Origin: Bradyrhizobium diazoefficiens
GTDB taxonomy: Bacteria; Pseudomonadota; Alphaproteobacteria; Rhizobiales; Xanthobacteraceae
Length of the DNA: 64,000 nucleotides
Reading direction: 5' to 3'
Assembly (NCBI RefSeq): GCF_016616235.1
Contig: NZ_CP067100.1
Span: 1,237,001 to 1,301,000 of the forward strand
The position numbers and the translations under genes were made by a program. Under the pieces are notes generated by a model, which saw only the letters and a program-made list of their open reading frames with translations, was not told where the DNA came from and did not search any database. This document shows, one piece after another, positions 14,392 to 59,666 of this stretch (position 1 is its first letter; every line of letters starts with the position of its first letter).

Positions 14392-14494
14392 GATCGTTCT
14401 CCGTCCTGTTTTGGGGTGCGATGTCCAGAGGACGGAGCGGGCAGCAGCCTTGTTACGGCTCCTCACTGCTCTGTGATGCAGTGCAAAACGAAAA

Positions 14495-24953: not shown

Positions 24954-25736
24954 TTATTGGTTCAGAAGCCTCAAGGCTTCTTCGTGAACCCGCGCATCGC
25001 CGGCGGCAATGATGCGGCCGCCGCCCTGCGCCGGCTTGCCTTCCCAGGTGGTGACGACGCCGCCGGCACCGGTCACGATCGGGATCAGGGCCGCAATATC
25101 GTAGGGCTTCAGCTCGGTCTCGACCACGAGGTCGACATGGCCGGCCGCCAGCATGCAATAGGAGTAGCAGTCGCCGCCATAGCGCGACAGCCGCGCTCCC
25201 TGCTCGATCTTGCCGAAGATGGCGCGGTCGCGCTCGTTCATCAGCAGCGGAGAGGTGGTGTAGGTCGTCGCCTGCGATAGCGAGGCGCAGCGGCGGACCT
25301 GGAGCCGGCGCGCGCCGGAGGGACCCTTGTACTTGGCCGAGCCGTTGTCGCCGGAGAAGCGTTCGCCGATGAAGGGCTGGTGCATCATGCCGTAGACCGG
25401 CGTGCCCTTGTGCAAGAGCGCGATCAGCGTGCCCCAGATCGGAAAGCCGCCAATGAAGGATTTCGTGCCGTCGATAGGATCGAGCACCCAGACATACTCG
25501 GCGTCCTCGCGCTCGTTGCCGAATTCTTCGCCGACGATACCGTGCTGGGGGAAGCTGGCCTTGATCAGCCGTCGCATCACCGCTTCCGCGGCGCGGTCGG
25601 CCTCCGTCACGGGGTCGAAATCCCTGGCCTTGCCCTTGTCGTCGATCGACAGCGAGGTGCGGAAGAGCGGCAGGATGGTTTCGCCGGATGCGGTGGCGAG
25701 CCGTTCGATGAAGGCGGAGAAGTCGATCACCGTCAC
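24954..25736 (-). CDS. hisN: Histidinol-phosphatase / inositol-monophosphatase family
   Basis: A 260-residue Mg-dependent phosphatase. Metal-binding motifs are GEE at 69-71, DPIDGTKSF at 86-94 and a C-terminal GVVTTWEGKPAQGGGRI where suhB-type proteins have WD. These motifs and the length fit HisN histidinol-phosphatases, which remove phosphate from histidinol phosphate in histidine synthesis; inositol-1-phosphatase is the alternative. It starts at GTG 25736. It precedes the Bug gene. About 340 bp upstream on the opposite strand lies an sRNA of the family named after suhB, an inositol-phosphatase gene. Confidence 0.82.
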   Translation of the reverse strand: MTVIDFSAFIERLATASGETILPLFRTSLSIDDKGKARDFDPVTEADRAAEAVMRRLIKASFPQHGIVGEEFGNEREDAEYVWVLDPIDGTKSFIGGFPIWGTLIALLHKGTPVYGMMHQPFIGERFSGDNGSAKYKGPSGARRLQVRRCASLSQATTYTTSPLLMNERDRAIFGKIEQGARLSRYGGDCYSYCMLAAGHVDLVVETELKPYDIAALIPIVTGAGGVVTTWEGKPAQGGGRIIAAGDARVHEEALRLLNQ

Positions 25737-26038: not shown

Positions 26039-26067
26039 TTGCACTTTGTGCGGCGCGGCCGCATATT
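26039..26067 (+). promoter_or_regulatory. Sigma-70-type promoter of the alpha-r8-like sRNA
   Basis: TTGCAC (26039-26044) and CATATT (26062-26067) are separated by 17 bp. Transcription would begin about 26074-26076, the base of the first sRNA hairpin. Confidence 0.65.
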
Positions 26068-26074
26068 GTTGCGG

Positions 26075-26162
26075 TGCGGTAGCGCTTGGCGTTACCGCTG
26101 CCCTCCTTGGGCGTTTCCTCCCTAGACTTGGGCCGCTTCTTCATCAGAAGCGGCCCTTTTTT
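26075..26162 (+). ncRNA. mmgR: Trans-acting sRNA of the mmgR/suhB (alpha-r8) family
   Basis: About 88 nt with three stems. The first hairpin is 10 bp (26076-26098, GCGGTAGCGC paired with GCGTTACCGC). A short hairpin follows (26100-26112, GCCC/GGGC). Then comes the unpaired TTTCCTCCCT (26114-26123), and last a terminator hairpin with a T-run. The single-stranded UUUCCUCCCU motif is, as I recall, the hallmark of the rhizobial alpha-r8 family (mmgR in Sinorhizobium, where it limits polyhydroxybutyrate accumulation; Rfam name suhB). CU-rich loops suggest pairing with ribosome-binding sites. It sits between hisN and the N-formylglutamate amidohydrolase gene. Family assignment comes from motif and architecture, not from a covariance-model search. 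Confidence 0.8.
26130..26162 (+). terminator. Rho-independent terminator of the sRNA
   Basis: An 11-bp stem, GGGCCGCTTCT with AGAAGCGGCCC, a 5-nt loop, then six T residues (26157-26162). Confidence 0.92.
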
Positions 26163-26263
26163 CTTTCAGCCTCAGCTTTCATTTCGGCGCGCGCAAACAG
26201 CGAAGCGAAAACGCGTGCGCGCCAATCGCTGGTCGCGCGATCGTCTTAAGAAAAAGCTCTCGC

Positions 26264-27154
26264 CTATTCCGCGGCGGCCTGGAACGGGCCGAGATCGCCG
26301 AACGGGACCGTGGTGGCCAGCACATCGGCAAGCACGCCAAAGTCGTTTGCCACCTGCGCAAAGCGCGGGCCGCGCTCGCGCCGCCGTTCGTCCATGTAGA
26401 TTGCGCGGTTGAGCTCGAGCTGCACGGCGTGCAGTCCGCTTGCCGGGTTGCCGTAGTGTTCGGTGATGAAGCCGCCGGCATAGGGCTTGTTGCGGCCGAT
26501 CGAATAGCCGAGCCCGGCGAGGGTCTCCTCGACCCGGTCAGGCAGCAGCGGCGTGCAACTGGTGCCATAGCGGTCGCCGATCACGACGTCAGGCCGGCGC
26601 GGCTCGTCCCTGCTGACGCCGACCGACGGCATCGAGTGGCAGTCGACCAGCACCACGGTGCCGAACATCTGGTGCACCTTGTTGATCAGCCGGCGCAGCG
26701 CGCGATGATACGGCTTGTACAGCGTCTCGATCCGCGCCAGCGCATCGTCGACCAGGATGCGGTCGCGGTAGATCTCCTGGCCGTCGCCGACCACGCGCGG
26801 AATGGTGCCGAGGCCGCCGGCGACCCGCATCGAACGGGTGTTGGCAAAGCTCGGCAGGCGCCCGGTGAACATGCGCGGATCGAGCTCATAGGGCTCGCGG
26901 TTGACGTCGACATAGGAGCGGGGAAAGTTGACCCGCACGGTCGGAAAGCCGCGCTCGCTGAGATGGCCGATCAGCTCGTCCATGAAGGAATCTTCGGAGC
27001 GCCGCAGCGTCGGCAGGTCGATCCGCGAGGCGCTCAAAAATTCGTCCGGATAGGTCGAGCCGGAATGGGGCGAGTTGAAGATGATTGGCGCGCGCCACTC
27101 GGCGGGCTCCACGATCTCGAAGGCTGGCGACACCTCGCCGTCAAACCGGGTCAT
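26264..27154 (-). CDS. N-formylglutamate amidohydrolase family protein
   Basis: A 296-residue enzyme of the zinc-dependent N-formylglutamate amidohydrolase family, which hydrolyses N-formylglutamate in some histidine-degradation pathways. Metal and substrate motifs are visible: FNSPHSGSTYPDEF (about 27-40), RSEDSFMDELIGHL and VLVDCHSMPS. No hut genes are nearby, so the physiological substrate is uncertain. It is divergent from cpdR, 351 bp away. Confidence 0.87.
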   Translation of the reverse strand: MTRFDGEVSPAFEIVEPAEWRAPIIFNSPHSGSTYPDEFLSASRIDLPTLRRSEDSFMDELIGHLSERGFPTVRVNFPRSYVDVNREPYELDPRMFTGRLPSFANTRSMRVAGGLGTIPRVVGDGQEIYRDRILVDDALARIETLYKPYHRALRRLINKVHQMFGTVVLVDCHSMPSVGVSRDEPRRPDVVIGDRYGTSCTPLLPDRVEETLAGLGYSIGRNKPYAGGFITEHYGNPASGLHAVQLELNRAIYMDERRRERGPRFAQVANDFGVLADVLATTVPFGDLGPFQAAAE

Positions 27155-27505: not shown

Positions 27506-27865
27506 ATGCCAAAGATCCTGCTCGCCGAAGACGACAACGACATGCGCCGTTTCCTGGTCAAGGCCCTGGAAAACGCCGGTTTTCAGGTCTCGTCCCATGA
27601 CAACGGCATGGCCGCCTATCAGCGGCTCCGCGAAGAGCCATTCGAGATGCTGCTGACCGACATCGTGATGCCGGAAATGGACGGCATCGAGCTCGCCCGA
27701 AGGGCCTCGGAACTCGACCCCGACATCAAGATCATGTTCATCACCGGCTTTGCGGCGGTCGCCCTGAACTCGGATTCGGACGCGCCCAAAAACGCCAAGG
27801 TGCTGTCCAAGCCCGTGCATCTGCGCGAATTGGTCAGCGAAGTGAACAAGATGCTGGCGGCCTAA
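27506..27865 (+). CDS. cpdR: CpdR-type single-domain response regulator
   Basis: A 119-residue receiver domain without an output domain. Acidic residues are in LLAEDDNDM, the phosphoacceptor is Asp52 in LLTDIVMPEMDGIELARRA, and the conserved lysine is in VLSKPVHLREL. In Caulobacter and Sinorhizobium, unphosphorylated CpdR brings ClpXP to the cell pole and promotes breakdown of cell-cycle proteins such as CtrA; phosphorylation through CckA-ChpT blocks this. The segment MFITGFAAVALN, which replaces the usual T-x-Y pattern, is typical of CpdR. Adjacent to tRNA-Val. Identification by recalled sequence pattern is strong. Confidence 0.92.
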   Translation: MPKILLAEDDNDMRRFLVKALENAGFQVSSHDNGMAAYQRLREEPFEMLLTDIVMPEMDGIELARRASELDPDIKIMFITGFAAVALNSDSDAPKNAKVLSKPVHLRELVSEVNKMLAA

Positions 27866-27939: not shown

Positions 27940-28014
27940 GGGCACGTAGCTCAGCGGGAGAGCACTACCTTGACATGGTAGGGGTCACAGGTTCGATCCC
28001 TGTCGTGCCCACCA
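27940..28014 (+). tRNA. tRNA-Val (anticodon GAC)
   Basis: The acceptor arms GGGCACG and CGTGCCC pair exactly. The anticodon stem CTACC/GGTAG encloses TTGACAT, giving anticodon GAC (valine). The T arm is ACAGG-TTCGATC-CCTGT, and CCA is encoded (28012-28014). The gene is intact and shows no integrase or duplicated 3' end nearby. Confidence 0.98.
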
Positions 28015-28454: not shown

Positions 28455-28997
28455 ATGGCTCATCCCTTCTTTACGATCGGCCATGCCACACGCTCGATCG
28501 AGGAATTCGTCGCGCTGTTGCGAACCAGCTCCGTCACCTTCGTCGCCGATGTCCGCACGGTACCCCGCTCGCGCACCAATCCGCAGTACAATCGCGAGAC
28601 ACTGCCACAATCGCTTGCGGCCGTTTCGATCGGCTATGAGCACATCGCCTCGCTCGGAGGCCTGCGCAGCCGCAAGCGCGAGGTGCCGCGCGAGACCAAC
28701 GCCTTCTGGCAGAACGACAGCTTTCACAACTACGCCGACCACGCCATGGGCGCAGCCTTTCACGAGGGTCTCGCGCATTTGCGCGAACTCGGGCGGGCCA
28801 GGCGATGCGCCATCATGTGTGCGGAGACGTTGTGGTGGCGCTGCCACCGCCGGATCATCACCGATTATCTGCTCGCCGCCGGCGAGACGGTGTTTCACAT
28901 TCTTGGCCCCGGGCAGGTCGACGAGGCCAAAATGAATCCGGCCGCGCATATCCTACGTGACGGCCGGCTCGATTACCCCGCGCCCTTCAGCCCTTGA
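28455..28997 (+). CDS. DUF488 family protein
   Basis: A 180-residue protein with the family signatures FTIGHATRSIEEFVALL near the start, VADVRTVPRSRTNPQYN, ASLGGLRSR and CAIMCAETLWWRCHRRIITD at the end. DUF488 proteins are widespread and of unknown biochemical role; the conserved Cys, Trp and Arg residues suggest an enzyme or nucleic-acid-binding function. It probably shares a transcript with the DUF2945 gene. Its 3' end overlaps the convergent ABC permease gene by 11 bp. Confidence 0.88.
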   Translation: MAHPFFTIGHATRSIEEFVALLRTSSVTFVADVRTVPRSRTNPQYNRETLPQSLAAVSIGYEHIASLGGLRSRKREVPRETNAFWQNDSFHNYADHAMGAAFHEGLAHLRELGRARRCAIMCAETLWWRCHRRIITDYLLAAGETVFHILGPGQVDEAKMNPAAHILRDGRLDYPAPFSP

Positions 28998-29814
28998 CCG
29001 CGCCGGCGGTGAGCCCCGAGACGAGATAGCGCCGCACCGCGAGCGAGAAGATCAAGACCGGTGCCATCACCAGCGAGCCGCCGGCGGCGATCTTGCCCCA
29101 TTCCCAGCCCTCGTAGTTCATGAAGTTGACGACGGCGACCGGTGCGGTGCGCGCGTTGGTGCGGGTCAGGATCAGCGCGAAGAAGAAGTCGTTCCAGGCG
29201 TAGAGGAAGCACAGGATCGCGGTCGCGGCGATGCCGGGCGTCACCATCGGCAGCACGATTCGTGTGAACACCGTGCGCGTCCGCGCGCCGTCGACGAGCG
29301 CCGCCTCCTCCAGCGAGACGGGAATCGTGTCGAAGAACGGCTGCATCATCCAGATCACCAGCGGCAGGTTGAAACTGGTGTAGACCAGCACGAGGCCCGT
29401 GATGGTGTCGAGCAGGCCGATCCAGCGATAGAACAGGAAGAAGGGAATCGTGAACGCGATCGGCGGCGCCATGCGCGTCACCAGGATGGCGAAGGAGAGG
29501 CCGTGCTTGCCGCGGCCGGCCCAGCGCGACAGCGCGTAGGCGGCGGGGACTCCGAGCAGCAGCGCCAGCGCGGTCGAAAGCGAGGCGCTCAAGAGGCTGT
29601 TGACGAAGGAGGCCGAGAACGCGCTGTGCCAGAGCGAGATGTAATTCTCCAGCGTCGGCGTGAAGATCAAAGGCGGCGGGAATTGCAGGATCTGGTCGTT
29701 GGTCTTGAAGCTCATCTGCAGCAGCCACAGGAACGGCGACAGCAGGATCAGCAGCGTCACCGTGATCGCGATCAGCCGGCCGGGCGTCGCCTTGCGCAGG
29801 GACGATTCGCTCAT
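28987..29814 (-). CDS. Sugar ABC transporter permease (MalG type)
   Basis: A 275-residue inner-membrane permease of the carbohydrate uptake family 1 (MalG-like). Six transmembrane segments are apparent. The cytoplasmic EAA loop is LEEAALVDGARTRTVFTRIV, which contacts the ATPase. The ATG at 29814 overlaps the stop of the upstream permease gene by four bases (ATGA), so translation is coupled. It belongs to a three-gene importer with the next two genes. No ATPase gene lies in the operon or nearby. Confidence 0.93.
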   Translation of the reverse strand: MSESSLRKATPGRLIAITVTLLILLSPFLWLLQMSFKTNDQILQFPPPLIFTPTLENYISLWHSAFSASFVNSLLSASLSTALALLLGVPAAYALSRWAGRGKHGLSFAILVTRMAPPIAFTIPFFLFYRWIGLLDTITGLVLVYTSFNLPLVIWMMQPFFDTIPVSLEEAALVDGARTRTVFTRIVLPMVTPGIAATAILCFLYAWNDFFFALILTRTNARTAPVAVVNFMNYEGWEWGKIAAGGSLVMAPVLIFSLAVRRYLVSGLTAGAVKG

Positions 29815-30707
29815 GCCAGCGCCTCTCGGCGCCGGCCCATCCAGACCAGGCCCAGGCTGATGCCGCAGACCAGCAGCAGCATCACCACGGTGACCGCGCT
29901 GGAATAGCCAATCTCGTTGGTGTCGAAGGCGAGCAGATAGGCATAATAGTTGGTGACCTCGGTAACCGTGCCCGGGCCGCCGCCGGTCAGGAGGAAGATC
30001 AGCGGGAACGCCTTCACACTGTCGATCAGGCGGAACATGCCTGATATTACCAGGATCGGCGTGATGAAGGGCAGGGTGACGTACCAGAAGATCTGCAGCT
30101 TGCTCGCGCCGTCGACGAGGGCAGCTTCCGAATATTCGTCGGGAATCGTCTGCAGCGCCGCCAGCACCATCAGGAAGGTGAACGGCAGCCATTCCCAGGT
30201 GTCGGCGATGATGATCGAGGTCAGCGCGAAATCGACGTTGGAGGTCAGCGCCGGCAGCGTGACATGCAGCGCTTGCGCGGCGTAATAGAGCGGGCTGATG
30301 TCGGGTGCGTAGATCAGCTTCCAGATCACCGCGACCACGATCGGCGGCAGCACCATCGGGATCAGGAAGAAGGTGCGGGCAAACTCGACGAAGCGCGACG
30401 GCACGTTCAGGAGCAGCGCGAGCAGCATGCCCAGCAGCACCTGGAACAGCACGCTCCAGACCGAGAGCTTGGCTTGCACGGCAAGCGAGTTGACGAAGCG
30501 GGGGTCGCCGGGCAGCAGGCCATAGTTGCGGAACGGCTCGCTGAAATCGGTGGCCGAGCCCGGAATCGTCAGCTGGAACGGCGTCAGGCTGGTCACGACG
30601 AGATAGATCGCCGGCAGCACGGCGACCGCGAACAGCACGATCAGGCTCGGGGTGAGCGCAAAGGCGATGAACCTCTTGCGCTCACCGTCAATTCCGCTCT
30701 CGCTCAA
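29811..30707 (-). CDS. Sugar ABC transporter permease (MalF type)
   Basis: A 298-residue inner-membrane permease. The first helix is PSLIVLFAVAVLPAIYLVVT. The EAA loop is YSEAALVDGASKLQIFWYVT, with LPFITP after it, as in MalF/UgpA-type subunits. It pairs with the MalG-type permease. Its start overlaps the stop of the substrate-binding protein gene (ATGA at 30704-30707), showing a tightly coupled operon. Confidence 0.93.
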   Translation of the reverse strand: MSESGIDGERKRFIAFALTPSLIVLFAVAVLPAIYLVVTSLTPFQLTIPGSATDFSEPFRNYGLLPGDPRFVNSLAVQAKLSVWSVLFQVLLGMLLALLLNVPSRFVEFARTFFLIPMVLPPIVVAVIWKLIYAPDISPLYYAAQALHVTLPALTSNVDFALTSIIIADTWEWLPFTFLMVLAALQTIPDEYSEAALVDGASKLQIFWYVTLPFITPILVISGMFRLIDSVKAFPLIFLLTGGGPGTVTEVTNYYAYLLAFDTNEIGYSSAVTVVMLLLVCGISLGLVWMGRRREALA

Positions 30708-32056
30708 AGTTTTGTCCCGGCGCGGCGGAGTGCGGCGATGGCCTGATCTTGCGCTGCGTTCATCGCATCCTTGGCCGGCAGCTGGCCCGTGGCGACCTGC
30801 TCGAACGCCTTGTTGAGGACGTCGCCGACGATGGGGAATTCCTTCGACGTGCGGTAAGCCATGTAGTTCTCGCCCTTGCCCGGCAGCTCCAGCACCTCGA
30901 GATAGAGCGCGCCGAGGTCCTGGCCGTTCACGGTGTTGAGCTTGCGATAGGCCTCACTGGTGATGATCGAGCGCCGGCACACCGAGGAGTGGCCATGCTC
31001 CTTCACGAGCCGCATCGAGATCTCGGGCGACAGCGCCCATTTGATGAATTCCCACGCCGCCTTCTGGTTCTTGGCGTTCTTGGGAATGCCGAGTCCCTGG
31101 CTGTTCGAGGCCGGATAGTCATGCACGGGACCGGCTGGCGAGCGCACCACGCGCGAGGTGTCCTTCACCTTGCTTTCGTCGGAGAGCAGGATCGGCGTCA
31201 CCCAGGCGCTGGAATGGATGAAGATGTTGGCGCGGCCGGTCAGCATCGCCTGCCGCGCCTGGTCTTCGGTGTAGGTCAAGACGCCCTTCGGCGCGCTCTT
31301 GAGGAGGTTCGCATAGAACTCGATGCCCTGGATCGCCTCGGGCGTATTCAGCGCCGGCATGACATCGCCGGGCGGATTCCTGAAGATGTTGCCGCCAAAG
31401 CCCTGAATGTAGGGCGGCAGATTCCAGTTGTGGAGGAACCACGACACGATGCCGCTGACGCCATCGGTGCCGTTGATCTCGGCGCAGACCTGCTGGAGCT
31501 CGGCGAAGGTCTTTGGGATCTTCAGCCCCTTCTTCTCCATCAGGTCCATGCGCGACAGCCCCATCAGCATGGCGCCGCCTTCCCAGGAATAGCCGTAGGT
31601 CGCGCCCTTGGCGTCGCGATAGGGCATCTGCGCGCCGTCGACGAAGTCGTTTGGATTCCAGTCGGCCGGCGTCAAATTGGCATCGCCAGTGAACTCGTCG
31701 AGATTGGCGAGCAGGCCTGCCGCGATCCAGCGGGTCGCAAGCGTGAAGGTGACATTGACGAAATCATAGGCCGAGCCGCCCGAGGACAGTTCGAGATTGG
31801 CCTGCTGGTTGTAGACGGGCAGGGCCGAGAGCTGGAGGTCGACCTTCATGCCGGTCTTGTCCTCGAACTCGGGGATGTATTTCTGCAGCAGCGTGAAGAA
31901 GCGGTGCTGGAACGAGGCACCGTGCAGCGTGACGCCGGCAAACGGCTTGGTTTGTGCGATCAGCGGCGCCGGGAATGCGGCGAGCGCGGCGGTGGCGGCG
32001 CTGGCCTTGAGCAGCTTGCGCCTCGTGATCGAGCTCACGCGCGGTGCAGTCTTCAT
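30704..32056 (-). CDS. Sugar ABC transporter substrate-binding protein
   Basis: A 450-residue periplasmic binding protein of the extracellular solute-binding family 1. The N-terminus has twin arginines followed by a hydrophobic stretch (TRRKLLKASAATAALAAFPA), suggesting Tat export. A typical domain start follows (GVTLHGASFQHRFFTLLQKY), with FIKWALSPEISMRLVKEHGH late in the sequence. The ATG at 32056 has GGGAGG upstream. It is the first gene of the importer operon and lies 31 bp from the GntR gene on the same strand. The proximity of a sulfatase suggests a sulfated or phosphonated sugar or ester as substrate; this is inference. Confidence 0.9.
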   Translation of the reverse strand: MKTAPRVSSITRRKLLKASAATAALAAFPAPLIAQTKPFAGVTLHGASFQHRFFTLLQKYIPEFEDKTGMKVDLQLSALPVYNQQANLELSSGGSAYDFVNVTFTLATRWIAAGLLANLDEFTGDANLTPADWNPNDFVDGAQMPYRDAKGATYGYSWEGGAMLMGLSRMDLMEKKGLKIPKTFAELQQVCAEINGTDGVSGIVSWFLHNWNLPPYIQGFGGNIFRNPPGDVMPALNTPEAIQGIEFYANLLKSAPKGVLTYTEDQARQAMLTGRANIFIHSSAWVTPILLSDESKVKDTSRVVRSPAGPVHDYPASNSQGLGIPKNAKNQKAAWEFIKWALSPEISMRLVKEHGHSSVCRRSIITSEAYRKLNTVNGQDLGALYLEVLELPGKGENYMAYRTSKEFPIVGDVLNKAFEQVATGQLPAKDAMNAAQDQAIAALRRAGTKL

Positions 32057-32087
32057 TGTTACCTCCCTCACTTTTTGTCTGCCGGTT

Positions 32088-32843
32088 TCAACGCGCCCGT
32101 CTGGTGCGGGCGTTCTCGTCCTCGACGTCCTTCTTCTTCTGGCGCGACATGGCGGTGACGATATTCTGTTCGGTCAGATCCATCAGCTTGTGCATGGCCT
32201 GGCGCGCTCCGTCGGGATTACGCGCCCAGATCTCGTCGAGCACCGAGCGGTGATAGGGCAGGCTCTTGCGCGGCGCGCCCGGATTGGTGCTCGACAGGTT
32301 GAACGACATGCGCAGCGCCGCAGCCACGGTCGCACCGAAGGCGATCAGGAAATCGTTCCCCGTGGCGATCAGGATTCCGCGGTGAAACTGCAAGTCCGGC
32401 TCGGCATAGGCGACGCGGTCCATGCCGGCCGCGTCCATGCCGCGATAGGCGCGCTCGATCCGGGCAAAATCCTCGTCGGTGCCGCGCTCTGCGCAGATCG
32501 CGCAGGCCTCGGGCTCGACGATCCGGCGGACCTCCATGATCTGCTTGGCGAACTCCTGCGTCGGCAGTGCCGATAGCGTCCAGTTCAGCAGTTCCTCGTC
32601 GAGCATGTTCCAGTCGAACCGCGCCCGCACATGCGTGCCGGCCTTCTGCTTCGAGGCGATCAGTCCCTTGGCCTTGAGCAGTGACAACGCCTCGCGAAGG
32701 GAGGCGCGGCTGACATCGAAGCGGGACGCCAGCTCGATCTCGCGGGGCAGCGTCGTGCCCTCGCGCCAGACGCCGGTCAGGATCAGCCGCGCCACTTCGC
32801 GGGCGATCGACTGAGGGCTGTCCTTGCTGCGAGATTTTGCCAC
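32088..32843 (-). CDS. GntR-family regulator, FadR subfamily (FCD domain)
   Basis: A repressor-type regulator of about 251 residues. The N-terminal winged helix contains TTLPREIELASRFDVSRASL and REALSLLKAKGLIASKQKAG. The C-terminal FCD ligand-binding helices cover about 90-240 (RIVEPEACAICAERG, YHRSVLDEIWARNPDGARQA). The GTG at 32843 (start VAKSRSKD) is chosen because GGAATC lies just upstream; longer frames reach 32936 but cross likely operator DNA. It heads the minus-strand importer operon and is divergent from the sulfatase gene, with two related operator-like sites between them. Confidence 0.88.
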   Translation of the reverse strand: MAKSRSKDSPQSIAREVARLILTGVWREGTTLPREIELASRFDVSRASLREALSLLKAKGLIASKQKAGTHVRARFDWNMLDEELLNWTLSALPTQEFAKQIMEVRRIVEPEACAICAERGTDEDFARIERAYRGMDAAGMDRVAYAEPDLQFHRGILIATGNDFLIAFGATVAAALRMSFNLSSTNPGAPRKSLPYHRSVLDEIWARNPDGARQAMHKLMDLTEQNIVTAMSRQKKKDVEDENARTRRAR

Positions 32844-32862
32844 GTTGATTCCGGTCTTGTGG

Positions 32863-32882
32863 AATAAAATGTCTGATTTATT
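32863..32882. promoter_or_regulatory. Operator-like site near the GntR start
   Basis: AATAAA and TTTATT flank the core ATGTCTGA (32869-32876). The same ATGTCTGA core occurs in inverse orientation at 32964-32976. It lies 20 bp before the regulator's start, as expected for autorepression. Confidence 0.5.
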
Positions 32883-32957
32883 GTAAGTGTCGACGAAGAG
32901 ATCTGCGACGTACGGCCTCAAGCCGCAGATAATCAAATCAAGGCCGGTTTGACAAGA

Positions 32958-36250: not shown

Positions 36251-36577
36251 AGACCGGCAGCGCCACCGATGCCCATCTGCTCGTCGATCAAAAACCGTTC
36301 GCGGTCTGCCCGTCCACAGACGCATCATTCCTGTAGATATGACTATTGTGTGTGTTGACACGCGCGAGAAAATTTTTGGCGAGAGTCGCAAATCGAACGG
36401 ACACGTCGCAATTTCGTCGCGCATACTCGTGTCCGGGCTGGATGCTCAACAGACAACTGATCGAACACCGAGGCGGGACAAATCCTCGCCTCCACGCGCT
36501 CTCGTGACGCAATGCAGCGTCGCGAGAAATAGTTTCGTTTGAACGGGAATGGTTTCGTTTAAGAGGGAGTTGGTGCC
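36251..36577. other. Intergenic region upstream of the phasin gene
   Basis: A 327-bp non-coding gap between divergent genes. GTTTCGTTT occurs twice at its right end (36532 and 36552), followed each time by an A/G-rich stretch. The second ends in the GAGGGAG ribosome-binding site. A TTGACA word is at 36355, but no good -10 follows. Nothing else recognised. Confidence 0.4.
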
Positions 36578-37045
36578 GTGAGTGAAAGTGAAGTGAAGGT
36601 CGCGCCAAATGGAGCGAATGGTTTTGCGACGCCGTTGTTCGGGTTCCCGAAGATCGAGGTGCCTGCTGTGATCGGCGAACTCGCAGAGCAGAGCGTCGTC
36701 CGCGCAAAGCAAGGCTGCGAGCGGATCAAGATCGCAACGGAAGAGATGGCGGACACGTTCCGTGAGACATACTCAAACAATGCGAGGAGCGCGACAGACT
36801 ACGGGCTCAAGCTGTTGGAGATCTCGAACGCAAATACGGCCGCAACGATGGATTTCTTCGCCGATCTTCTGGGCAGCAAATCGGCGACTGATGTTGTCAC
36901 CTTGACGGCGGCGCAATCGCGCAAGGTCTTCGACGCTGCATCCGCCCAGAACAGGGAATTGTGGAAGCTTGCTGAGAAGCTGACGATGGAGACGAGCGAG
37001 CCGATCAAGAAGCACTTTGCCAAGGCCCTTCAGAAGGCAGGCTAA
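36578..37045 (+). CDS. Phasin family protein (PHB granule-associated)
   Basis: A 155-residue all-helical protein of the phasin_2 family, which coats polyhydroxybutyrate granules and limits their size. Helical amphipathic segments include VIGELAEQSVVRAKQGCERI, KIATEEMADTFRETYSNNAR and YGLKLLEISNANTAATMDFF. The C-terminal helix is ELWKLAEKLTMETSEPIKKH. It starts at GTG 36578 behind GAGGGAG. The mmgR-like sRNA at 26 kb belongs to a family that controls polyhydroxybutyrate build-up in Sinorhizobium, so a link is conceivable but not shown. Confidence 0.9.
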   Translation: MSESEVKVAPNGANGFATPLFGFPKIEVPAVIGELAEQSVVRAKQGCERIKIATEEMADTFRETYSNNARSATDYGLKLLEISNANTAATMDFFADLLGSKSATDVVTLTAAQSRKVFDAASAQNRELWKLAEKLTMETSEPIKKHFAKALQKAG

Positions 37046-58286: not shown

Positions 58287-59666
58287 CTACCCCTTCTTCC
58301 CCACCCGATATCCCGCCGCCGGATGTGGCGCGTCGAGCCGAGCGCGACCCGTGCCAAACAGCTTCTCCCGCAGCGAGCCCTGTGCGTATTCCGCCTTGTA
58401 CCGCCCGCGCTTGGTCAGCTGCGGCACCAGCATATCGGCGATGTCCTCGAAATCGCCGGGCGAGATCGCAAACGCAATGTTGAGGCCGTCGACATCCGTC
58501 TTCTCGAACCAATCCTCGATCTTGTCTGCGACGCTTTCCGGCGTGCCGACCACGACCGGGCCGGCGCCGCCGATGCCGACATGCTCGATGACGTCGCGCA
58601 CGGTCCAGACGCGATCGGGGTCGCCGCGCGTGACGTTGTCGAGCGCGCTGCGGCCGGCATCGTTCTGGACGTGGCGGACCTGCTGGTCGAGTTCATAGCC
58701 GGAGAAGTCGATGCCGGTCCATCCCGACATCAGGGCCAGCGCGCCTTCCGGGTTGATGTGCGACCGATAGTCGGCGTATTTCTCTTTCGCTTCAGTCTCG
58801 GTATTGCCGAGGATGATTGTCATCATCGAGAACATCAGGATCTCGGCAGGGTTGCGGCCGAGCGCAGCGGCCTCTTGCCGGATCGCGGCAACGCGCGGCG
58901 CGATGATCTTGGCCGATGGCCCCGACATGAACACGCATTCGGCGTGCTTGGCCGCGAATTGCCGGCCGCGCGGCGAGGTGCCGGCCTGGTAGAGCACGGG
59001 CGTGCGCTGCGGCGACGGCTCGCTGAGATGAATGGTATTGTTGATGCGGTAGTTCGCGCTTTCGTGGTTGATGCGATGCACTTTTGAGGGATCGGTGAAG
59101 ATGCCGCGCTTGCGGTCCCGCAGCACGGCGTCGTCCTCCCAGCTTCCCTCCCAGAGTTTGTAGACGACCTCCATATATTCATCCGCAATGTCGTAGCGGT
59201 CGTCGTGCCCGGTCTGCCTGTCCTTGCCGGCGCCGCGCGCGGCGCTGTCGAGATAGCCGGTGACGACGTTCCAACCGATCCGGCCCTCGGTGAGATGATC
59301 GAGCGTCGACATCCGCCGCGCGAACGGGTAGGGCGGCTCGAACGACAGATTGCTGGTGACGCCGAAACCGAGATTTTGCGTCACCGCCGCCATCGCCGAG
59401 AGCAGCAGCAGCGGCTCGTTCGACGGCGTTTGTGCTGCATTGCGCAAGGCTGCGTCAGGACTGTTGCCATAGACGTCATAGACGCCGAGCACGTCGGCGA
59501 GGAACAGCCCGTCGAAACGGCCGCGCTCGAGCGTTTTGGCGAGGTCGATCCAGTAGGGCAGGCGGTTATAGTCAGCGGTGCGGTCGCGCGGATGGGTCCA
59601 CAGGCCCGGTGATTGGTGTGCGACGCAGTTCATCGCAAAGGCGTTGAGCCTGATCTGTTTGGCCAT
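58287..59666 (-). CDS. LLM-class flavin-dependent monooxygenase (NtaA/SnaA/DszA family)
   Basis: A 459-residue bacterial luciferase-like FMNH2-dependent monooxygenase. The N-terminus is QIRLNAFAMNCVAHQSPGLW followed by RFDGLFLADVLGVYDVYGNS. Also visible are HLTEGRIGWNVVTGYLDSAA, ARGAGKDRQTGHDDRYDIAD and PVLYQAGTSPRGRQFAAKHA, all NtaA/SnaA/DszA family motifs. Members oxidise nitrilotriacetate, sulfur or other compounds and need a separate flavin reductase, which is not nearby. The ATG at 59666 follows GGGGACG. Divergent from the M20 peptidase gene. Confidence 0.93.
   Translation of the reverse strand: MAKQIRLNAFAMNCVAHQSPGLWTHPRDRTADYNRLPYWIDLAKTLERGRFDGLFLADVLGVYDVYGNSPDAALRNAAQTPSNEPLLLLSAMAAVTQNLGFGVTSNLSFEPPYPFARRMSTLDHLTEGRIGWNVVTGYLDSAARGAGKDRQTGHDDRYDIADEYMEVVYKLWEGSWEDDAVLRDRKRGIFTDPSKVHRINHESANYRINNTIHLSEPSPQRTPVLYQAGTSPRGRQFAAKHAECVFMSGPSAKIIAPRVAAIRQEAAALGRNPAEILMFSMMTIILGNTETEAKEKYADYRSHINPEGALALMSGWTGIDFSGYELDQQVRHVQNDAGRSALDNVTRGDPDRVWTVRDVIEHVGIGGAGPVVVGTPESVADKIEDWFEKTDVDGLNIAFAISPGDFEDIADMLVPQLTKRGRYKAEYAQGSLREKLFGTGRARLDAPHPAAGYRVGKKG

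Follow-up and report, generated by a model that had tools for sequence, protein, structure and literature searches.

A canonical alpha-r8 (MmgR/suhB) small RNA gene of Bradyrhizobium diazoefficiens and the PhaR-operator-like palindromes on its promoter

The alpha-r8 locus and its RNA

The window analysed here, a 64,000-nucleotide stretch of the Bradyrhizobium diazoefficiens genome (a single contig of 7.67 Mb), contains a predicted small RNA gene (26074..26165, + strand) between a divergent inositol-monophosphatase-family gene, suhB-like (24954..25736, - strand; PF00459), and a convergent N-formylglutamate amidohydrolase gene (26264..27154, - strand; PF05013), both flanks being assigned by domain and synteny. 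Farther along are a stand-alone response-regulator receiver gene (27506-27865) and, following it, a tRNA gene (27940-28011, + strand; 68.9 bits in Rfam). Among 30 genus loci, the window's own counted, 29 have both flanking genes, as do 18 of 28 elsewhere in the order, which marks the locus as the canonical alpha-r8 place; each search contributed its 30 highest-scoring loci rather than a random sample, and the genus set takes in the window's own locus and one (L004) that lacks the canonical neighbours.

The original prediction assigned the RNA to the alpha-r8/MmgR/suhB family and named an Rfam covariance search as its check. That search matched RF00519 (suhB/MmgR, 'Makes More Granules Regulator RNA' in Rfam) at 26093-26170 on the + strand over the full model (1-77), with 76 bits against a cut-off of 41 and an E value of 6e-14, and the match together with the occurrence of the family across relatives bears the assignment out. 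All 60 sampled genomes of the genus (own included) have a match to RF00519 above the cut-off, with 1 to 12 matches per genome at E values up to 0.001; in the order, the family is carried by 89 of the 101 genomes sampled. The window's own genome has two further matches, of 52 and 38.8 bits, the second below the cut-off and both without the canonical flanking genes. The second alpha-r8 copy of this genome (L002, G000:C1:5804546-5804618) keeps the family 10-mer and the terminator half, while its 5' half deviates and by eye resembles several paralogues in the genus (for example L250, L252 and L263). Two of the 12 matches in genome G010 are on its second contig, and close clusters of alpha-r8 RNAs were noted in other genera (G135:C6:353924-355239, G103:C10, G143:C1).

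The RNA, whose start is placed about 7 nt past the -10 hexamer and whose end is placed in a U-tract, has a minimum free energy of -47.6 kcal/mol, compared with -29.1 +/- 3.1 kcal/mol for 200 shuffled sequences (z -6.0), and the computed fold returned everything that had been read from the letters: three stems, an 11-bp terminator stem and the unpaired motif. The 5' stem-loop (stem 1; 26076..26098, + strand) has 10 bp between arms 26076-26085 and 26089-26098. The second, conserved stem-loop, UGCCCUCCUUGGGCG (26099..26113, + strand; arms 26099-26103 and 26109-26113), contains a CCUCCUU anti-Shine-Dalgarno-like stretch. It is followed by the unpaired family 10-mer UUUCCUCCCU (26114..26123, + strand), the presumed pairing site according to the fold and the family match, and by the intrinsic terminator (26130..26165, + strand), an 11-bp stem (arms 26130-26140 and 26146-26156) that runs into the U-tract TTTTTTCTTT. 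A short helix ahead of the 10-mer and an intrinsic terminator, both typical of the family, are thus found here. The 10-mer is invariant in 39 aligned loci of the order, loci that had themselves been located by that motif; in the same alignment 5 of 11 predicted pairs changed on both sides, all of them in the terminator stem. The consensus fold of the 39 loci recovered the second stem and the terminator, and stem 1 was absent because the sequence aligner did not register it; it was instead checked by position in the 30 genus loci, where each of its pairs is kept in 29 or 30 and one pair is swapped between C-G and G-C. Most of the RNA is invariant or nearly so across these 30 loci.

The proposed promoter with 17-bp spacing is present to the letter as TTGCAC-N17-CATATT, with the -35-like hexamer at 26039..26044 and the -10-like hexamer at 26062..26067 (+ strand), which gives the RNA a predicted promoter of its own, as in other members of the alpha-r8 family. 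CTTGC in the -35 region is invariant in the 30 genus loci, the -10 region and most of the stretch between it and the start are nearly so, and a 60-base stretch of promoter and 5' stem was found exactly in three Bradyrhizobium genomes. The promoter is missing from a generic sigma-70 scan (by E. coli standards TTGCAC is a weak -35), and a generic scan for terminator-like sites found 1 where 1.2 were expected by chance; the weight is therefore carried by the family match and by conservation. On its sequence, this is a genuine and ordinary member of a known RNA family, and it was named correctly in the original prediction.

PhaR-operator-like palindromes on the promoter

Two palindromes resembling the operator of PhaR (AniA), which the original prediction had missed, are located in the promoter. 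Operator 1 has the core TGCGGCGCG between -35 and -10 (26049..26057, + strand), and operator 2 has the core TGCGGTGCG, centred on the predicted start (26070..26078, + strand) and 21 bp from the first; the core pattern searched was YGCRNYGCR. The palindrome given for PhaR (AniA) of Sinorhizobium meliloti is WNWD2NYGCRNYGCRNH2WNW (PMC12542648), and the B. diazoefficiens PhaR consensus, derived by footprinting and by aligning the promoters that PhaR binds, is TGCRNYGCASMA (PMC6201568). Read on the other strand, operator 1 is CGCGCCGCACAA, which agrees with the latter consensus at 11 of 12 positions and is identical to the 12-mer that the PhaR table of B. diazoefficiens gives for bll4785 (PMC6201568); operator 2 agrees at 10 of 12. 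Random 80-nt stretches of the same genome reach a score of 11 in 50 of 2000 cases and a score of 10 or more in 429 of 2000, so that scores by themselves say little and conservation counts. Near-consensus PhaR-like palindromes were also noted elsewhere in the window, at 14477-14485 (TGCAGTGCA) and 59072-59080 (TGCGATGCA).

A pair of cores 19-22 bp apart is present at all 30 genus loci and, elsewhere in the order, at 16 of 28, with at least one core at 26 of the 28. Two control patterns of like make-up were each found at 0 of these 58 loci (genus and order together), and random 80-nt stretches contain a core in 173 and a pair in 1 of 2000 cases, a rough yardstick since these were drawn from the window's own genome and the genomes of the order differ in composition. 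Operator 1 takes five forms among the 30 genus loci, all inside the degenerate pattern; these loci belong to close relatives and so do not amount to 30 independent events. Because the predicted RNA begins inside operator 2, part of the conservation of that operator could serve the RNA. The first scan had ended before operator 2 in the genus and was widened by 8 nt after the sequences had been viewed, which changed the figure for the order from 25 of 29 (including L081, a locus of the same genus) to 26 of 28 (L081 left out). The two order loci with no core are L079 and L092; their lack of it is not explained by loss of PhaR, since the PhaR-type domain PF07879, found once in the window's own genome, is present in all 28 order genomes.

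The further copies of the RNA present a different picture. Among 39 of the 40 further loci fetched from the genus (L242 was left out), 6 have a core, compared with 6 and 1 for the two control patterns, and the pair is found at two, L231 and L236; neither of the two extra matches in the window's own genome has a core. L231 has the canonical promoter sequence and comes from the same genome as L004, the best-scoring locus there, which is the one without canonical neighbours, and L236 resembles L004, which also bears the operator pair. Thus, PhaR control would belong mainly, though not only, to the canonical copy. The four sibling RNAs of Caulobacter likewise have promoters unlike one another (PMC12559287).

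The PhaR/AniA operator associated with MmgR-type control of polyhydroxybutyrate (PHB) is represented here at the level of sequence, and its conservation as a pair at the canonical copy and rarity among further copies argue that PhaR probably represses this copy, until it is titrated by PHB granules, which is the behaviour reported in Sinorhizobium. In S. meliloti the mmgR promoter has a listed PhaR site that is bound in vitro, with PhaR described as a repressor (PMC12542648), and DNA binding by B. diazoefficiens PhaR is nearly abolished by PHB in vitro (PMC6201568). It is rather improbable that the palindromes are instead conserved as promoter spacer, or bound by another regulator: such an explanation would fit the conservation, within the genus, of everything between -35 and the start and the frequency of the core in a genome so rich in G+C (90 in 64 kb), but beyond the genus the letters of the promoter differ while the core stays (26 of 28 loci, against 173 of 2000 random stretches), the 19-22 bp spacing is kept in 16 of the 28, and the S. 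meliloti counterpart is the site bound by PhaR in vitro (PMC12542648).

Phasin and solute-binding-protein messages as candidate targets

The original prediction had made the link to PHB through a neighbouring gene and not through the promoter, by proposing that the RNA limits PHB storage through direct pairing with the ribosome site of a phasin gene 10 kb away (36578..37045, + strand; Phasin_2, PF09361). The gene is present, with GAGGGAG upstream (36563-36569), but its complementarity to the linker of the RNA amounts to 6 contiguous bp (CUCCCU/AGGGAG) and does not extend over the whole of UCCUCCCU. Of 369 genes sampled for the duplex ranking, 120 pair equally well or better. A slight change in the rule for picking starts gave 364 genes, the set used for the class and shuffled-seed tests, and 116 of these do so. 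AGGGAG is present in only 1 of 22 phasin orthologues, the window's own, when 23 of 30 loci are used of which one (L122) has no usable start and three (L120, L127, L135) have doubtful ones, the other seven loci being at most 35% identical. Conserved pairing with this ribosome site was thus not found among the 22 orthologues, and closeness of the gene says little where an RNA acts in trans. By the gene ranking and the lack of conservation, direct pairing with the neighbouring phasin message is not supported and is very improbable. An S. meliloti mmgR mutant does make more PhaP1 and PhaP2 at unchanged mRNA levels (PMC8401924); MmgR lowers phasin protein there, and this counts in favour of phasins being targets, if only indirect ones. 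In the window's own genome the seven Phasin_2 matches rank 15, 110, 120, 120, 193, 253 and 312 of 369, and the first of these, the phasin gene G000:C1:2784087, whose ribosome site AAAAAAGGGAGGAGUGCG offers an 8-bp match, pairs far better than the neighbouring one. Action on this other phasin would keep the link between MmgR and phasins and agree with the S. meliloti phenotype (PMC8401924), and we regard it as an outside possibility that deserves mention: the gene is the best of seven, picked afterwards, and AGGGAGG makes a good Shine-Dalgarno site in any case. Of the proposed connection with PHB, then, what stands is the route through the PhaR-like operators, and what lacks support is the route through the neighbouring phasin.

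Some other features of the phasin genes were noted. A PhaR-like core, CGCAATGCA, is located at 36508, upstream of the window's phasin gene, and two such cores each were seen by eye at the phasin loci L060 and L066. Another phasin match (L063, G000:C1:1490595-1490867) has an in-frame TAG and lies beside an intact phasin gene (1491448); it is possibly a decayed tandem copy.

The best-pairing start in the window (rank 7 of 369 in the duplex test) belongs to a predicted target of another class, an ABC-transporter solute-binding protein gene (30704..32056, - strand; PF01547) with the ribosome site GAGGGAGGUAAC. GGGAG is found at this start in 9 of 10 orthologues, the window's own included (10 of 30 loci were taken as orthologues, the remainder being at most 33% identical). 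The gene is part of an ABC transporter operon (28973-32936, - strand; solute-binding protein, permease-like frames and a GntR/FCD regulator) about 5 kb from the RNA; operon and alpha-r8 copy lie some 6-12 kb apart in the relatives G002, G013, G027 and G036 but megabases apart in G031, and local closeness of target and RNA was not counted as evidence.

Solute-binding proteins were also considered as classes. Of the PF01547 genes, 11 of 22 have GGGAG no more than 20 nt from the start, as have 11 of 29 PF13458 genes, compared with 45 of 364 background genes, the two sets being 22 of 23 PF01547 loci (own included) and 29 of 30 loci taken out of 62 PF13458 matches. The strong Shine-Dalgarno sites of these genes alone give p values of 3e-5 and 1e-7, and after regression on Shine-Dalgarno strength the excess in pairing retains residual p values of 0.035 and 0.0018, respectively; the test compares duplex energies computed at self-picked starts, and strong Shine-Dalgarno sites account for most of the excess. 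Among 100 shuffled seeds, 1 did as well as the 10-mer. The messages of ABC solute-binding proteins are, on this sequence evidence, the more likely targets and fit better than phasin, in line with the Caulobacter RNA SisA.

Further loci (L043, L048, L049, L053 and L055) have complements of the 10-mer plus CG, with one mismatch, directly before possible start codons; they are listed as candidate targets, the pattern being no commoner than its control. A sponge RNA like CrfA was also sought and rejected: AGGGAGGAAACG near-complements (at most 1 mismatch) number 24 in the genome, and the reversed control pattern gives 23. Two of the 24 lie antisense to alpha-r8 copies, and no sponge candidate was recognised among the remaining 22.

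Proposed mechanism and comparison with known systems

The elements identified at the level of sequence are a promoter, a structured RNA of about 90 nt, a single-stranded anti-Shine-Dalgarno 10-mer, a terminator and two conserved PhaR-like operators. With good though not full confidence, we interpret them as a trans-acting alpha-r8 RNA that is repressed by PhaR, derepressed by PHB and aimed mainly at uptake messages rather than at the neighbouring phasin. In the absence of PHB, PhaR would repress the promoter; as PHB granules form they would bind PhaR, and the RNA would be made. Together with Hfq, the RNA would then pair through UUUCCUCCCU with GGGAG(G) ribosome sites and block translation, its main targets more likely being nutrient-uptake messages (ABC solute-binding proteins) than that of the neighbouring phasin; uptake would thereby fall in cells full of stored carbon. 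Most other copies, which have other promoters, would answer to other signals.

A bolder proposal, which we put forward tentatively, is that the canonical RNA of the order is a carbon-store gauge, in which a double PhaR operator with a spacing of two helical turns would permit the RNA only when PHB titrates PhaR, the RNA would shut off many ABC solute-binding-protein messages with GGGAGG sites, and most of its siblings, having no PhaR sites, would feed other signals into the same target set. If this is true, PHB granule formation is coupled to uptake through one RNA, and effects on phasins are secondary. The operator pair and the excess in pairing with solute-binding-protein messages make the questions of MmgR targets and of copy number testable in B. 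diazoefficiens; the analysis usefully adds a double PhaR-like operator that is conserved and a change in the proposed target class that can be tested.

The family itself has long been known in the genus. In 2005 Corbino and colleagues reported five copies of the suhB RNA in B. japonicum and regarded it as a probable small RNA encoded opposite suhB (PMC1273637), and nothing sets the present copy apart from that description: family, genus, transcription opposite a suhB-like gene, promoter and terminator are the same, and the available text on the motif makes no mention of operators. The terms suhB and mmgR are absent from two papers on B. japonicum transcripts (PMC5082802, PMC4842269), as are mmgR, sRNA and small RNA from PMC10888616 and the term sRNA from PMC6201568. 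A review describes MmgR control as relying on a conserved dyad between -35 and -10 (PMC8401924), so that operator 1 is already in print for S. meliloti; no prior report of operator 2, or of the contrast between canonical and other copies, was found in the available literature text, which did not include the original MmgR papers of 2016-2018.

The AbcR RNAs (alpha-r15) share with this RNA unpaired CU-rich anti-Shine-Dalgarno motifs, transporter targets and partial suhB homology (PMC7143759), but are a separate family, and the Rfam search gives only suhB above the cut-off at 26093-26170. SisA-D of Caulobacter crescentus are alpha-R8 RNAs in several copies with unlike promoters and a conserved 10-mer for pairing; SisA pairs by its 10-mer, and TonB receptors and transporters abound among its targets (PMC12559287). 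C. crescentus differs in that the available account reports no conserved promoter motif there (PMC12559287), and in its sponge RNA CrfA, for which no candidate was recognised here (24 near-complements versus 23 in the control).

Another close counterpart is MmgR of S. meliloti, which limits PHB and has no direct target known as of 2020 and 2025, according to the available text of two papers (PMC7143759, PMC12559287). It has the same Rfam family (RF00519), the same anti-Shine-Dalgarno 10-mer, three stem-loops and a PhaR/AniA site on its promoter (PMC12542648, PMC8401924). As for the NtrC-dependent activation associated with MmgR, no convincing NtrC-like site was found upstream here, the best agreeing at 9 of 12 positions with an NtrC consensus and overlapping operator 1. 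S. meliloti is described as having a single alpha-r8 RNA (PMC12559287), whereas the present genome has three matches, and the Bradyrhizobium promoter differs from that of MmgR by a second operator-like core on the predicted start.
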